A stretch of DNA of 64,000 bases, taken from contig DATATI010000023.1 in NCBI GenBank assembly GCA_036268875.1, forward strand, positions 1 to 64,000, given 5' to 3'. Below the pieces are notes generated by a model that saw only the letters and a program-made list of their open reading frames with translations, was not told the DNA's origin and ran no database searches. This stretch comes from Polyangia bacterium (GTDB lineage Bacteria; Myxococcota_A; Polyangia; Fen-1088). A program made the position numbers and the translations under genes. This document shows positions 1-7,199 of this stretch, in pieces (the first letter of the stretch is position 1; every line of letters begins with the position of its first letter).

Positions 1-59
1 ATCGCTTATTGTCGAAAGAATTCGAGCGAACCATCGTTTCAAGCGAATCCGACATTCAA

Positions 60-1238
60 CTATGTATGATACGTCTCATGACGCGCCGCCTGGCATTTGG
101 CTGAGTTATTGCGGCCTTTTCCTGTAGGACAGCCTCTAAGATTCTCGTATCCGAAAACTTCATCCATTAGCACCTTGACGTAGTGAACCGCGTGCCAATC
201 GAGGTGAATGTAGATACTCCCCGTCGGCGCCAGCAATTCCTTCAGCAACTCTAACCGTCGCCGCAGCATCGTCAGGAAACTGTCCAACCCCTGTCGCCAG
301 GTATCCTTGTAGGCCAGGATCTCGACCAGCGACGGCTCCTTCTTCACCTGGACGTGCGCCTCGTCATCGAGATCGATGTCCACGGTGTTGTCGGCGCGGA
401 AGTCGTTGTTCACCATGAACGGCGGATCGATGTAGACGAGGTCGACCTTGCCGCGATAGCGCCAGTCGCGCGTGACCGGATCCTTTTCGTCCAGCAGCGT
501 CTGCAATGCCACCAGGTTGTCGTTGGTCCAGATCAACCGGTTCGCCGGCAGCCCCGCCACGTCGCGCGCTTCAACCGTCCGGGTCTCGATGCCGCTCAGC
601 ATCGGCCCGCGATCCACGGCGCGCCCCGGGCGCACGATCTCGACCACCTGCGAAGGCACCGACAGTGCCGCTTCCTTGCGCCACATTCCCTGCCAGGCCA
701 AACGCGGCTTGCGCGCCGTGACCTCCAGCGTGATCTCGCGGCTGGACGGCGCGCTTGCCCTCATGGTTGGGGAGAGAAGCGGCGCAGTTGGCGCCGCCTG
801 TTCGTCACGCGTCTCCACGCGCGGCCGGGGCGCCGGCGCAGGCGCCGTAGCGGCGCTGACAACCGGCGCCACCCAGGGAAGCGACGGTTGGATCGGCGCC
901 GGCGGCGTCAGGGCGGACGGAGCGTTGGCACCGTCCCGAGCCTTCTTGCCCTTCGCCGCGGGTCGTTCGTCGGCGCCCGACGCCGCCAGTATGCGGTCGA
1001 CAATGATCTGCTTTTCCCGCCCTTCGGCAGGCTCGCCGATCGCAAAGCAAATCGACTTCAAAGTGTCGCGCGACAGCGCCGGCAAGATGCGCTCCAGCGT
1101 CGCGCGCTTGCTGCCGGCGACCGTGTCGATCAGCTCGTCCAGGCGCATCCCGGTGCTGACGTCCAACTCCAGCGATCGCCCGATCTCCAATAGCTCAACC
1201 CGGGTCAGGGCTCCCAGGGCACGTCGCTTGAACGTCAT
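60..1238 (-). pseudogene. 3'-truncated adenine-type DNA methyltransferase (Mod-like) with SAP/Rho-N-like N-terminus
   Basis: The start ATG at 1238 gives a 392-residue product. Residues 1-90 contain two short helical repeats (about 10-45 and 52-87) resembling SAP or Rho-N nucleic-acid-binding motifs. Residues 90-180 are a Pro/Ala-rich linker. From about 230 the sequence matches the N6/N4-MTase family of type III Mod proteins: LIWTNDN, then VDLVYIDPPF with the catalytic DPPF at 271-274, then SIYIHLDWHAVHYVK and EVFGYEN. Beta-class enzymes carry the target-recognition region and the FxGxG SAM-binding motif after this point; here the reading frame becomes unrecognisable after EVFGYENLR (about position 150) and stops at TAG 60-62. 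The other two frames do not restore similarity, so this looks like a breakpoint rather than a single frameshift. It follows the WYL gene by 68 bases on the same strand, so the two were probably one operon. The product lacks SAM-binding residues and should be inactive. Confidence 0.75.
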
Positions 1239-1306: not shown

Positions 1307-2341
1307 CTACTCTTTGTACCGCCCCGCCCCTCGCGCCAGTTCGCCGGCGATCTTTGCCCGCAACGCGCGCGGCGCGACCACCACCGCCGCCTCGCCAAAC
1401 CCCAGCACCCAGCTCTCCAGTTCCACCGTCGCCGCCACCTTCATCGTCATCTCCAACCCCGCCCCCGTCCGCCGGAACTTCTGCGTCGGGTGCCACAGCA
1501 CGCGCTCGACGTACCGGGCGACCTTCGCATCGAACAGGATCCTCACCCGCGTCGGCTCGCCGCGGATCAACCCGAAGGCGCCTTCGGTGACCTGCTCGGG
1601 GCGGTAGTCCGTCGGGTACGCGAACTTGTCGCCGCGCAGCCAGTCGACTTTCCGGAAGGCGTCCAGCGCGAAGGTGCGGATCTCGCCGTGCTGGTGGCTG
1701 AGGCCAACCAGATACAGTCCCTTCTTGTAGACCATCAGCGTGTACGGCTCGAGGACGAAGGTCTTCTTGCCGCTGGAGACGCTCTGGTGCGTGACCCGCA
1801 GGCGCTCCTCGCGCAGCAACGCGGTGACGATGTCGTTCACGTCCTCGATGCGGCCCTCGTAGAGGTGGCGGGCTTCGTTGACGTCGAAGACTTTGCGGCC
1901 GAGGTTGCGGGTGGCGGCGAAGTCCTTGCGCTTGAGCTGGGCTTCCAGCTTGGCGAAGACCTCGTCGAGATCCTCCTTGAAGCCGGTGCCGGCCAGGAAG
2001 TCGAACACGCGGCGTGAGAGAAAAAGCGCGACCATCTGGGCGGTGGTCAGGGTGACGGTCTGCTGGCGGGCGCTGGCCATCAGGCGCCAGACCTTGCGGC
2101 GGACGGTCACCTCTTCGTACAACGGCTCGTCGGCGATCTGCAGGGCGCGGAGGTACCGATTGGCGGTGCGGACGCTGACGCCGAACCGTTCGGCGAGGTC
2201 GTAGACACTGGCCCCGTCGCCGGTGTTGAGGACGGCGCGCACGTCGGCCAGGCGGCGCGCCGGGGCATAGCGCTCGCCGCGGCGGGAAACTTTCTTGCGG
2301 GCGGTGGCCATCGGCTGGTCTGGTCTGAACCATTTTGTCAT
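1307..2341 (-). CDS. WYL-domain transcriptional regulator (HTH-WYL)
   Basis: A 344-residue protein with an N-terminal helix-turn-helix (about 28-75, [19 protein letters not shown]) of DeoR/HTH_11 type, a central linker, and a WYL domain at about 185-260. The WYL core is recognisable in [10 protein letters not shown] and [11 protein letters not shown], followed by a C-terminal WCX-like extension. WYL domains are thought to bind ligands such as nucleic acid fragments and to control DNA-damage (PafBC) or defence (BrxR/CapW) genes. The ATG at 2341 has AAGG seven bases upstream; a second ATG at 2311 is possible. It is divergent from recA with only 40 bases between starts, and the broken DNA methyltransferase lies directly downstream. 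Both neighbours fit a role in DNA damage or defence control, but that role is inferred. Confidence 0.88.
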
Positions 2342-2381: not shown

Positions 2382-3506
2382 ATGACGACCACGCAGAATC
2401 CGACCGCGACCGGCGACACAACCAAAGCCCCATCCCCCCAGCAGCTCGAGCGCACCCGGTCCCTCACCGCCGCGGTGGCCGACATCGAAAAGCAGTTCGG
2501 CAAGGGCGCGCTGATGCGCCTGGGGGAGGGCGCCGGCGAGGCCGAGGTGCCGGTCATCTCGACGGGCTCGATCGGGCTCGACATCGCGCTCGGGACGGGG
2601 GGGCTGCCGCGCGGACGGATGGTCGAGGTCTATGGACCCGAGTCGTCGGGCAAGACCACGCTGGCCCTGCACGTGGTGGCGGAGGCGCAGCGGCTGGGCG
2701 GCGTCTGCGCGTTCATCGACGCCGAGCACGCGCTGGATGTTGGCTATGCCAAGAAGATCGGGGTCAAGGCGGAGGACATCCTGCTGTCGCAACCGGACTG
2801 CGGCGAGCAGGCGCTGGAGATCACCGAGATGCTGATCAAGTCGGGCGCGGTGGACGTGGTGGTGGTCGACTCGGTGGCGGCGCTGGTGCCGAAGGCCGAA
2901 CTGGAAGGCGAGATGGGCGATTCGCACATGGGCTTGCAGGCGCGGCTGATGAGCCAGGCCCTGCGCAAGCTGACGGCGGTGGTCGCGCACAGCAACACCC
3001 TGGTCATCTTCATCAACCAGCTGCGCATGAAGATCGGCGTGATGTTTGGCAACCCCGAGACGACCACCGGCGGCAACGCGCTGAAGTTCTACGCCTCGGT
3101 GCGCCTGGACATCCGGCGCATCGGGGCGCTCAAGGACGGTGAGCAAGTGGTGGGCAACCGGACGCGGGTGAAGGTGGTGAAGAACAAGCTGGCGGCGCCG
3201 TTCCGCGAGACCGAGTTCGACATGGGGTACGGCCAAGGCATCTCGCGCGCCGGCGAGCTCATCGATCTGGGCGTCGAGGCGGGCCTGCTGGAGAAGAGCG
3301 GCGCCTGGATCGCCCACGGCGGCGAGCGCCTGGGCAACGGGCGCGAGGCGGCCAAGCAATACCTGCTCGACCATCCAGAGTTGTCGCGCGATCTGCGGAC
3401 CAAGCTGCTCGAGCACAACAGGATCGGTCTCGCCGCCAAGGCGCCACCCGCGCCCGAGAAGGCGGACGCCCGTCCTCCCTCCGCCTCAGCGAAGAAGGCA
3501 GCCTGA
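2382..3506 (+). CDS. recA: Recombinase RecA
   Basis: A 374-residue RecA, the ATP-dependent strand-exchange protein of homologous recombination and co-protease of SOS regulation. Walker [10 protein letters not shown] is at 85-93, Walker B-type strand [16 protein letters not shown] follows, and the DNA-binding loop L2 region ([28 protein letters not shown], split here as [10 protein letters not shown] and [14 protein letters not shown]) is intact. The [11 protein letters not shown] segment has Cys where enterobacterial RecA has Thr. The C-terminal tail after about 345 is Ala/Pro/Lys-rich rather than the usual acidic tail. AGGAG at 2371-2375 sits seven bases before the ATG. It is divergent from the WYL regulator with 40 bases between, so both promoters must lie in or overlap that space and the flanking coding ends. 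Whether the genome has a second recA, as Myxococcus does, cannot be seen here. Confidence 0.98.
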
Positions 3507-3510
3507 CGTC

Positions 3511-3708
3511 ATGAAGGCGGACGCGATTGATCTGAAAAAACTGCTCGGGCCCGGCGCGAATGACAACGCCGGGACCACCGACGAGCCGCCGTCGGTCCGA
3601 ACGCCCAAGGGCCGGCCGGCGTCGGTCTACGCCCAGCAAGGGAACGTGCTGTTGCCGCTGCGCTTCGCTCGGCGGATGGCGGGATGGAATCGACAGGACC
3701 GCAACTGA
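3511..3708 (+). CDS. Small protein of unknown function downstream of recA
   Basis: A 65-codon frame begins four bases after the recA stop and ends 19 bases before the convergent oxidoreductase. The protein starts MKADAIDLKKLLG and ends basic (RFARRMAGWNRQDRN), with a Gly/Asn/Pro-rich middle. A GAAGG about a dozen bases before the ATG lies inside the recA end. The tight spacing suggests translation coupled to recA. I recognise no family. It is not the recX regulator often found here, which is longer and helical. It could be a chance frame. Confidence 0.4.
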   Translation: MKADAIDLKKLLGPGANDNAGTTDEPPSVRTPKGRPASVYAQQGNVLLPLRFARRMAGWNRQDRN

Positions 3709-3727
3709 CGCCTGCCGCTGCCGGTGA

Positions 3728-4729
3728 TCAGCGATCGACCGCGCAGTCCAGGGCCACTTTGCCGAAGCTGTTGTTCTCTTCCAGCCAGCGATGAGCGGCC
3801 GGTGCCTGGGCCAGTGGGAACACGCGGTCGACGATCGCCTTGACCCGACCGCTGGCCAGCAGCGGCACCACGTGACGGCGGAAGGCCTGCACGGCGGCCA
3901 GCTTTTCTTCCAGCGGTCGCGCCCGCAGCACGGTGCCGCGCACGACGGCGCGTCGGTGCAACAGCACGCCCAGATCGATCGACGCTTTCGCTCCGGCCAG
4001 GAGCCCGACCACGACGATCCGTCCCTTGGGGGAAAGGCACGCCAGATCCTCGGCGACGTAATCGCCGCCGACCAGCTCCAGCACCACATCGACGCCGCGC
4101 CCGCCGGTGGCTGCTTTCACTGCCTGGGCGAACCGAGCGTCGTTGGCGACGATGGCATCATTCAGGCCCAGCGCACGGGCGCGGGTCAGCTTGTCGGCGG
4201 TGCGGGCGGTTCCCAGCACGTGCGCACCGACCGCGCGCGCCAGTTGCACCGCGGCCGTACCCACGCCGCTGCCCACCGCCGAGATCAACACCGACTCGCC
4301 CGCCCGCAGCTCGGCCTGGGTCACCATCGCGTCGTAGGCGGTGATGAACGCCTCGGGCGCCGCGGCCGCCTCGACGTAAGACAGTCCGGTGGGAATAGGC
4401 GCCAGCGCCCGATCGCTGGTGACCAGCGCCTCGGCGTAGGCGCCGCCGCCGACCAGACCGAACACGCGATCCCCGATCGCCCAGTCCGTCACGCCCGAGC
4501 CCACCGCGGCGACATCGCCGGCGAAATCCATCCCCGGAATGTCAGCCGGAACATCGGGCGGCGCCGGATAAAGCCCGCGCCGCTGCAGTAAGTCCGCCCG
4601 GTTCAAGGCCGCCGCTCGCACGGCCACCACCACCTCGCCGCGCTCTGCTTGCGGTTGTGGTCGCTCGACGACATGCAAGACGTCCGGTCCTCCGAACTGG
4701 CTGATCACCACCGCGCGCATGCGCACCAT
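3728..4729 (-). CDS. NAD(P)H:quinone oxidoreductase, MDR/zinc-free alcohol dehydrogenase family
   Basis: A 333-residue medium-chain dehydrogenase/reductase of the quinone oxidoreductase (TP53I3/PIG3-like) branch, which reduces quinones with NADPH. The N-terminal GroES-like domain has ALNRADLLQRRGLYP and GMDFAGDVAAVG. The Rossmann domain has the dinucleotide motif SAVGSGVGTAAVQLARA near 150-165. The Cys and His zinc ligands of true alcohol dehydrogenases are absent, as expected for this branch. The end, LEENNSFGKVALD, is typical of the family. Start choice is between ATG 4729 and an in-frame ATG nine bases on. It converges with the small frame after recA and shows no clear operon partner. Confidence 0.9.
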   Translation of the reverse strand: MVRMRAVVISQFGGPDVLHVVERPQPQAERGEVVVAVRAAALNRADLLQRRGLYPAPPDVPADIPGMDFAGDVAAVGSGVTDWAIGDRVFGLVGGGAYAEALVTSDRALAPIPTGLSYVEAAAAPEAFITAYDAMVTQAELRAGESVLISAVGSGVGTAAVQLARAVGAHVLGTARTADKLTRARALGLNDAIVANDARFAQAVKAATGGRGVDVVLELVGGDYVAEDLACLSPKGRIVVVGLLAGAKASIDLGVLLHRRAVVRGTVLRARPLEEKLAAVQAFRRHVVPLLASGRVKAIVDRVFPLAQAPAAHRWLEENNSFGKVALDCAVDR

Positions 4730-4801
4730 GATGATGCTTTTCGCGGCCGCCGCCAGGTTGGCGAAGGGTTTTGTTCCGTCGGGAACCGAGACCGCGGGTC
4801 G

Positions 4802-5494
4802 TTAGCCGTGCAGCAGGGTATAGCCGAGCATTCGCACCACGGAAAACATGTCGGCGACGTGCAGCGTGAGGAGAAACGCCGCCGCGTAAAACCACGACGG
4901 CCGCCGCGACTCCCAAAGAAGAAACGGCTGGCTCAAGACTTCGCAAATACGGGGTCGGGTGATGCCCCAGCCGACCAAAGCGCCTATGGCAAATCCAGCC
5001 AGGATATCGGTGGGAAAGTGTAGCCCAACATATACCCGCGGCGCGCACACCAAGATCGCGCCGACAGTCCAGAGAAGAATTCCCACTCCCGTAGAGACGG
5101 CGCCCATACCCGTAGCAATGGCCGCCCAAACCAACGCATGGTCGCTGGGAAACGAACTCCACAGTCGCAATCCGAATCGCGAACTTCCCGATGGAAGAGT
5201 CAGATGCAGTGATGGGTCGGCAAAAGGGCGCATCCGGAAGGGAAAGGCGTGGCTGAGAATTCGGCCCAAAAATACCGCTACCGCCGTGCCGACAATGGCG
5301 CTCAGGACCGCCGAGCGTTGCGAACGCGCGTTATTGCCAGGCCGAAACCAGGTCCACCAGACGGCGGCCATTGCCAGATCACTCTTGAAACCAATCTCTT
5401 CGGAAACCCAGATTCTGATGAACGCATCGAAGCGCGGAGACGAGCCAGCGATCTGGCCAAAGGCATCAAAGACGGTCCGGTCAATGACATTCAT
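4802..5494 (-). CDS. PAP2-family membrane phosphatase
   Basis: A 230-residue integral membrane protein with the three-part phosphatase signature of the PAP2 superfamily: FRMRP (86-90), SFPSDH (114-119) and R153-x5-H159-x3-D163 in APRVYVGLHFPTD. Five to six hydrophobic segments surround these motifs, which place the active site at the membrane surface. Family members dephosphorylate phosphatidic acid, undecaprenyl diphosphate or similar lipid phosphates; the substrate is not decided by the sequence. The ATG at 5494 gives the expected short N-terminus; an open frame runs further upstream only because it shadows the HTTM gene. The HTTM gene lies 116 bases upstream on the same strand, so cotranscription is possible. 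Confidence 0.87.
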   Translation of the reverse strand: MNVIDRTVFDAFGQIAGSSPRFDAFIRIWVSEEIGFKSDLAMAAVWWTWFRPGNNARSQRSAVLSAIVGTAVAVFLGRILSHAFPFRMRPFADPSLHLTLPSGSSRFGLRLWSSFPSDHALVWAAIATGMGAVSTGVGILLWTVGAILVCAPRVYVGLHFPTDILAGFAIGALVGWGITRPRICEVLSQPFLLWESRRPSWFYAAAFLLTLHVADMFSVVRMLGYTLLHG

Positions 5495-5610
5495 ATGAAT
5501 CCTAAGAAAGTGAAGAGATCGATCATCGCTGACTGCAGCAATACCATTTTGTGCCGGCGACTGTCCACGAAGCGGCCGACTGAGGCGAGAAGCGTCGCGC
5601 AGCAATAAAT

Positions 5611-6630
5611 CTAAGACGAACGTTCTTCGGCCACGCCAGCGGGCCCGGTCGGCCGCGACCATCGCCGCAAAGGCGCCCAGAGACGAAGCAGCAACGGCTC
5701 CGGAAGGAACGAAGCGAGCAAGATTGTCGCCATGAGAAGGGCGAACCAGACCACCGGTCCAAACATGAGCCCGATCATCGCGTGCATTCCCAGCCCCACC
5801 ACCAAGGCGGGCCGTCGGGTCCAGGGGAGCGCGAACCAAATTGGCGCGCCGGCCTCGAACGTCAGCACCAGGCCTTGCAGCGCCCACCACATCCAGCCCG
5901 GCAGCAGGTGCGTGATCAGCCAGGCGACGCGGGTTTGATATTGGTCGTGCAGGTGGGTCCACAGCACTTGTTTCGTCAGCCAATCGCCGCGCGCCTTGGC
6001 GATGCCCGACGCTGAGTACATGGTGACCAAGAAGATCTGAAAGAAGCGAATCGTTCCGCCGGCGACATGGGTGGGGATCTTCGCGCCGGGATTGCGGCGC
6101 CGGCGCCACCAGCCGTCGACGCCGTATCGTGCCCCGCACGGAGCGAAGAACAACGCCAGTATCAGGATCGGCGCCAGCTTGGTCACCGTGAAGGCCTCCA
6201 GCCGATCTGCCAGGGTCACATACGCAACACCAAGGGCAAAGATCGCCGCCGCCGGTTGCGACGCCAGGCCGGCCGCCAGGCACAGTCCAGAAGTGGTTAT
6301 CACTGCCGCCAGGGTCCAGGCCGCCCAGACCGGCGCCGGCGGCAGATAAAGGGGCTGGCGCCAATCGCCGCCCAGATCGGGGATCTGAAAACCAACGGCG
6401 GTCAGCCAATAATCGGCGTGCACCAGCCGAGAAGAGAGAAATCCCAGGATGGCCAGCGGCAGGAAAATTCTGAGCAAGGCCAATCGCTCGATCGGCTGGG
6501 GCGCGGTGAGCCAGCCGCGAATCCGGGGAATCAGCGTCTCGACTGTCGGAACCGTCGGCCGGCTGGCCGCCGGAGCCAGGCCAGTACGGACGGCCGCCGC
6601 CGCTGCCGCCCGTTTTCGGCGGCGGCTCAC
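5611..6630 (-). CDS. HTTM-domain membrane protein
   Basis: A 339-residue polytopic membrane protein with a basic, Ala-rich N-terminus and about eight hydrophobic helices. ALLRIFLPLAILGFL near residue 50, DYWLTAVGFQIPD and the FLVTMYSASGIAK segment fit the HTTM (horizontally transferred transmembrane) family related to vitamin K-dependent gamma-carboxylase. Bacterial HTTM proteins have no settled function, and the catalytic lysine of carboxylase cannot be assigned with confidence. Its start overlaps the stop of the upstream gene by four bases (ATGA, 6627-6630), so the two are translationally coupled. Confidence 0.8.
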   Translation of the reverse strand: MSRRRKRAAAAAAVRTGLAPAASRPTVPTVETLIPRIRGWLTAPQPIERLALLRIFLPLAILGFLSSRLVHADYWLTAVGFQIPDLGGDWRQPLYLPPAPVWAAWTLAAVITTSGLCLAAGLASQPAAAIFALGVAYVTLADRLEAFTVTKLAPILILALFFAPCGARYGVDGWWRRRRNPGAKIPTHVAGGTIRFFQIFLVTMYSASGIAKARGDWLTKQVLWTHLHDQYQTRVAWLITHLLPGWMWWALQGLVLTFEAGAPIWFALPWTRRPALVVGLGMHAMIGLMFGPVVWFALLMATILLASFLPEPLLLRLWAPLRRWSRPTGPAGVAEERSS

Positions 6631-7199
6631 GGCGCCTCCGTGCAGCGGCGCGTGCGCGCTGCTCCGTCCGTGAGGTACCAGTCCAGGCGCTGTACCGATG
6701 GCGGGTAGCTCTCGATCGGCAGTCGCTGGTAGCGCGGACCAGGCGTCCCCAGCGGCGGTATCGGCACCCGTAGGCTCAGCACCAGCACACCGCCGATGCG
6801 CGCCTCCGGATGGAGCCGGTTCTGGGTGTCTGTCAGATACTGGTCCATCGCTTCCAGCACGCGGCGGTGGCGGTGATAGAAAAACATCGCCCGATCGAAC
6901 CGGCTTTCTTTGTCGTCAGCGCGAATGGGAAAGAAAGGACGCACATCGATCTCCTCGTAATGGCCGAGGTCACAAGAAAAACCGCGGACCCGCCATTCGA
7001 TCGAGTCCTGGGCGGCATTCGGAAAGAGTTCGGTGACCTGTACGAAGAAGCGCATCGGCAGCGGGAGAACGCGGGTGGGCAACATCGTGCCGGCTCCGTC
7101 CAGCCAGATCGCCAGCAGGTACGCCGCGCCGGCGACCATCGCCAGGCGACGAAGCCAGAGGGGCGCCCACGACTGCGCTGTCTGAATGGGCTGCGGCAT
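6627..7199 (-). CDS. Membrane-anchored protein paired with HTTM
   Basis: A 190-residue protein with one hydrophobic segment at about 17-35 (LAMVAGAAYLLAIWLDGAG) followed by a soluble domain rich in aromatic and charged residues (RWRVRGFSCDL-type start, DVRPFFPIRADDKESRFDRAM). I do not recognise a named domain. It is the first gene of a pair whose second member is the HTTM protein, with a four-base overlap. Proteins of this size next to HTTM genes are common, so it probably acts with its neighbour at the membrane; that is inference. Confidence 0.7.
   Translation of the reverse strand: MPQPIQTAQSWAPLWLRRLAMVAGAAYLLAIWLDGAGTMLPTRVLPLPMRFFVQVTELFPNAAQDSIEWRVRGFSCDLGHYEEIDVRPFFPIRADDKESRFDRAMFFYHRHRRVLEAMDQYLTDTQNRLHPEARIGGVLVLSLRVPIPPLGTPGPRYQRLPIESYPPSVQRLDWYLTDGAARTRRCTEAP

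Follow-up and report, generated by a model that had tools for sequence, protein, structure and literature searches.

The window, by which we mean the whole 64,000-nucleotide stretch analysed, begins at base 1 of contig C23 of the studied genome (G000), so that its abrupt left edge marks a boundary of the assembly. The genome comprises 6.15 Mb in 95 contigs, with an estimated contamination of 3%. The left end of the window contains the following features:

1–136, plus strand: right end of an IS5-family insertion sequence (IS), the remainder of which is absent from the contig; its terminal inverted repeat, read inward, is GAGGCTGTCCTACAGGAAA (118–136).
3–104, plus strand: last 33 codons and stop codon of the IS transposase, translation RLLSKEFERTIVSSESDIQLCMIRLMTRRLAFG*.
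60–136, minus strand: non-native tail of the truncated open reading frame, read out of the IS to the stop codon at 60–62.
137–139, no strand: target-site duplication TAA (TTA on the strand of the gene), repeated at C7:139–141.
137–1238, minus strand: 5' portion of a Mod-like, beta-class DNA methyltransferase spanning 367 codons and one base, assigned by homologue alignment, motif scan and PF01555.
1307–2341, minus strand: WYL/WCX regulator of 344 residues (Pfam WYL E=1e-13, WCX E=5.1e-14).
2382–3506, plus strand: recA, divergent from the WYL gene and one of three RecA matches in the genome.

The minus-strand open reading frame runs from 1238 to the stop codon at 60–62 and is composed of 392 codons plus the stop. 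Native and IS sequence meet at 136/137, where the last native codon encodes Leu, and approximately the last 25 codons of the frame are IS sequence. A preliminary description of this DNA had reported that similarity ends abruptly at about position 150, after a peptide ending in ENLR, with AT-richer DNA beyond it. The abrupt end is in line with the GC content, which is 48.5% in the left 136 bases and 65.2% in 137–1238, and with the homologue match, which stops at the junction; its position shifts to 136/137, the R of ENLR being formed partly by IS bases. The new short frame placed at about 54 does begin with a minus-strand ATG (55–53) and stays open to the window edge, but lies antisense to the end of the transposase gene (plus strand, 3–104).

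Beta-class methyltransferases are defined by motif IV (DPPx) ahead of motif I (FxGxG), with the target-recognition region between the two. The motif scan finds motif IV, as DPPF, in the window half of the methyltransferase, which lacks the target-recognition region and motif I. The Pfam model N6_N4_Mtase (PF01555) matches only at profile positions 1–70 of 221, confirming that the gene is truncated inside its catalytic domain, as previously proposed. The accompanying SAP/Rho-N-like label could not be confirmed. No SAP/Rho-N Pfam model matches the whole window protein at E<=0.001 or its first 50 residues at E<=1, and a PDB sequence search for such likeness gave no useful match. The predicted fold is helical and of low confidence (mean pLDDT 63.9); searched against the PDB, this model has no match at E<=0.001, and a Rho chain is ranked 45th (E=7.9, 38 columns).

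An IS5-family element supplies the first 136 bases, which form its right end, in agreement with the earlier expectation of a mobile element to the left. The first ~141 bases of the window recur at 97–100% identity at the ends of contigs C39, C87, C70, and C29 and inside C54 (384–524), and in the alignment of these copies the common identity ends at the same point in each. The opposite (left) IS end is located at C84, C82, C7, C10, and C54. The 19 terminal bases of the inverted repeats are identical between the right end in the window and the left end on C7, and a T-N-A triplet follows each of the 11 IS ends examined (six right, five left). The C54 copy is longer and encodes the C-terminal 61 residues of the transposase. 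These match Pfam DDE_Tnp_1_2 (PF13586) above its cut-off (E=4e-09) and NCBIfam NF033580, IS5 family transposase, at E=1.4e-10 and 41 bits, against a full-length cut-off of 110. In addition, several annotated plasmid relatives are named IS5 family transposase.

An excerpt of PMC12016507 describes an IS1031-subgroup element of the IS5 family, ISLrh, which uses 5'-TNA-3' targets, generates a 3-bp direct repeat and carries the terminal repeat GAACCTGTCTAGTATCT. This repeat is similar to that of the window IS; the GAnnCTGTC start of the terminal repeat and the TNA target are common to both, whereas the element studied here is represented by its ends and the transposase C-terminus, its full transposase and element length not being seen. 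A search for a complete copy of the IS in the genome found none, the sole PF13586 match being the partial copy on C54, and the IS was not found in any of 38 relatives searched. Positions 1–524 of locus L006, on C54, contain two partial IS copies in tandem, one apparently inserted near or into the other.

The missing 3' half of the methyltransferase is found on contig C7, which opens with a left IS end and the complementary triplet TTA, followed by coding sequence that includes PF01555 positions 137–220 (C7:527–772). This is the best of four PF01555 matches in the genome. Two weaker ones lie on C91 and C95, where a test for Mod gave a weak match (E=2.9e-05) and none, respectively. At the IS ends other than that of the window, 12 loci on nine contigs were compared, and Mod is encoded at C7 alone. 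Of the five left IS ends, none but that of C7 has a triplet complementary to that of the window. Since TAA is found at C39 too, the triplet by itself cannot choose between C23 and C39, and it is the coding sequence that does. When the flanks are joined at the triplet, a single reading frame passes through the junction with no codons lost. An uninterrupted homologue of 927 residues, whose similarity stops at the window junction and resumes only on C7, aligns on both sides of the joined junction by tblastn, residues 1–439 at 70% identity and 470–927 at 78%. Because the two aligned segments fall in different frames, the C7 half must contain a second lesion: the frame changes about 290 bases beyond the junction. 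The interior of the IS is missing from the assembly and no contig therefore spans the insertion; as judged from sequence, C23 and C7 are linked by the target duplication and by coding continuity.

Six homologous loci were found by a single-protein search of genome contigs, and all six are named as Myxococcales metagenome bins, which points to a similar origin for the studied genome. Both halves of the methyltransferase are contiguous in five of them, whereas in the sixth only the C-terminal part was matched. In their bins, some homologues are themselves split between frames, and therefore only the G006 copy was taken as the intact standard. In the intact Mod homologue PF01555 is nearly complete (1–220), with DPPF followed by FxGSGT. 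It resembles the Mod subunit of EcoP15I (4zcf, E=7.3e-17) and other Mod structures (6k0w), and PADLOC models for type II and type III methyltransferases match Mod. The beta-class motif order expected of a type III restriction–modification system is also found here, shared between the DPPF of the window half and the FLGSGT of the C7 half.

On C7, Mod is followed in the 3' direction by a gene of 308 codons, a PIN-domain gene and an intact Res-like helicase/nuclease of 1197 residues. Four of the six homologous loci have Res 3' of Mod, and the remaining two are cut off by the contig end, either inside Mod or ~0.9 kb beyond it. The C7 Res matches ResIII (Pfam, E=1.1e-05) and carries helicase motifs together with a YPDF...EVKG nuclease-like motif judged by eye, so that the adjacent Res with helicase and PD-(D/E)xK nuclease typical of type III systems is present as far as this visual reading of the nuclease holds. 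Its best full-length NCBIfam match is the BPTD_3080 family restriction endonuclease (NF046055, E=4.1e-75, residues 19–987), of which it is not a member by that model, as its 253 bits fall below the curated cut-off of 800. The locus thus has the Mod motif order and the neighbouring Res in common with EcoP15I-like type III systems, and differs from them in the C-terminal Peptidase_S24 domain of Res (Pfam), in the extra genes between Mod and Res, and in the weak, local match of Res to type III models (PADLOC E=4.5e-12, ~77 residues). Given the IS insertion and the frame change, Mod would not be functional; taken as a whole, the locus reads as a divergent Mod–Res locus of type III-like kind that has been broken.

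More distant relatives were found in a plasmid search with Mod, which matched 2,549 records, two of which span 80% or more of the query, with 27–28% identity. In an Aminobacter plasmid record, a distant relative, a DEAD/DEAH helicase likewise lies 3' of the methyltransferase. Viral contigs searched for a relative of Mod contained none.

The contigs themselves show the two junctions, the duplication, and a frame that runs unbroken across the joined flanks, and the case is an ordinary IS5-family insertion breaking a divergent type III-like mod gene at a contig end. Almost certainly, a copy of the IS5-family (IS1031-like) element transposed into the type III-like mod gene and duplicated TTA, the left end of the window being a contig start inside that copy. 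On this reading the repeated element would have entered the mod (adenine methyltransferase) gene and duplicated its TTA target, and assembly would have stopped inside the repeated IS, leaving C23 to begin within one copy. The predicted truncated product would keep motif IV but have no target-recognition region, no motif I for AdoMet binding and no C-terminal domain, and we therefore infer that it would be unable to methylate. With Mod lost and its 3' half frame-changed, the Mod–Res system is probably non-functional, even though Res is intact. Given the 95 contigs and 3% estimated contamination, the sampled population could be polymorphic for the insertion. A literature search for an IS inside a type III mod gene returned nothing matching all four terms, and a second one returned four papers matching at least four of five terms, the latter judged by titles and the starts of abstracts.

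Within the window alone, where homology ends abruptly beside AT-richer DNA, the gene could be taken for the start of a defence or modification operon cut by recombination, as the preliminary description had it. A restriction–modification-type gene is indeed cut, by an IS5-family insertion with a 3-bp duplication, with its 3' half and Res on C7. A deletion or recombination that took out the 3' half and fused unrelated DNA is extremely improbable, because C7 holds that half behind a matching IS end with the complementary triplet and no codons lost at the junction; recombinational deletion of the 3' half was rejected on this finding. An IS end joined to an intact gene by the assembler would make the junction purely an artefact, and here the contig does extend for only about the length of a k-mer, roughly 140 bases, into a repeat present in several copies, the record name of a related genome carrying a k141 tag. 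The contig accordingly breaks within the IS repeat, but the junction itself is reciprocal: left and right junctions occur at the same target triplet on two contigs, unlike a random misjoin, and the frame change in the 3' half fits a dead gene, though it could also be a sequencing error. We consider such an artefact exceedingly unlikely.

That the short frame encodes a naturally short methyltransferase-like protein has a vanishingly small chance. The frame does stay open for 392 codons and has its own stop, but its last ~25 codons are those of the IS, and the C-terminal half continues on the same contig in the homologues at five of the six loci; homologues of the same length ending at this point were not seen. 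The locus might not be dead: the intact S24-bearing Res, retained beside the PIN pair without Mod, would then be a repurposed nuclease that acts independently of Mod, and the IS would switch Mod reversibly. This we regard as very unlikely. Under the insertion into mod, the apparent truncation is mainly explained away, as the missing half is present on another contig and the break reflects a gap in the assembly where an IS copy lies.

Exactly 68 bases, as previously reported, separate the end of the WYL gene at 1307 from the start of the methyltransferase at 1238, both genes running in the same direction. The proposed membership of the WYL gene in a defence or modification operon is not supported by the relatives. 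The available flanks of the six Mod loci contain no WYL homologue (0 of 6, two loci covering only 2–3 kb upstream), and no Mod is found on four WYL-bearing contigs of relatives. A WYL match at E<=1e-40 occurs in 6 of 39 genomes, own genome included, and recA adjoins WYL divergently in three of four relatives' contigs (L065, L066, and L067, one with a recA fragment); in the fourth, L068, recA was not found in the stretch examined. The WYL gene was therefore rejected as an operon leader, and it is probably a neighbour belonging with recA instead of a partner of the methyltransferase. WYL regulators of the DNA damage response exist, namely PafBC, DriD, and SiwR, according to the starts of abstracts and an excerpt of PMC12288472. 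The likeness to these lies in the WYL domain and in the recA neighbourhood, here and in relatives, and the WYL/WCX protein may by analogy be a PafBC-like regulator of the window recA. PMC9122601 also describes WYL regulators of phage-defence islands, so a role of WYL near defence genes is conceivable.

A divergent Mod–Res locus of Myxococcales genomes takes shape from the intact relatives, with Peptidase_S24 on Res and changing cargo between the genes. A C-terminal Peptidase_S24 (LexA-like) domain is found on Res at positions 3285–6878 of locus L043 (C7) and at 6742–10338 of L032, the one relative examined. This is an unusual fusion that could permit self-cleavage on DNA damage. In a literature search for S24 with type III restriction, S24 was absent among the matches listed (best 8 of 22). 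Between Mod and Res on C7 (L043, 1916–3285), the 308-residue gene overlaps the start of the PIN-domain gene. The pair recurs in G014 and, with PIN matched only in part, in G013, in each case away from the contigs that carry Mod. The 308-residue protein has a weak match to PADLOC PDC-M32A (E=0.00044), and the two genes resemble a toxin–antitoxin-like or defence pair. In G006, one of the six homologous loci, the slot is occupied instead by a YhcG-type PDDEXK nuclease (PF06250, E=8.3e-55; L031, 4920–6236).
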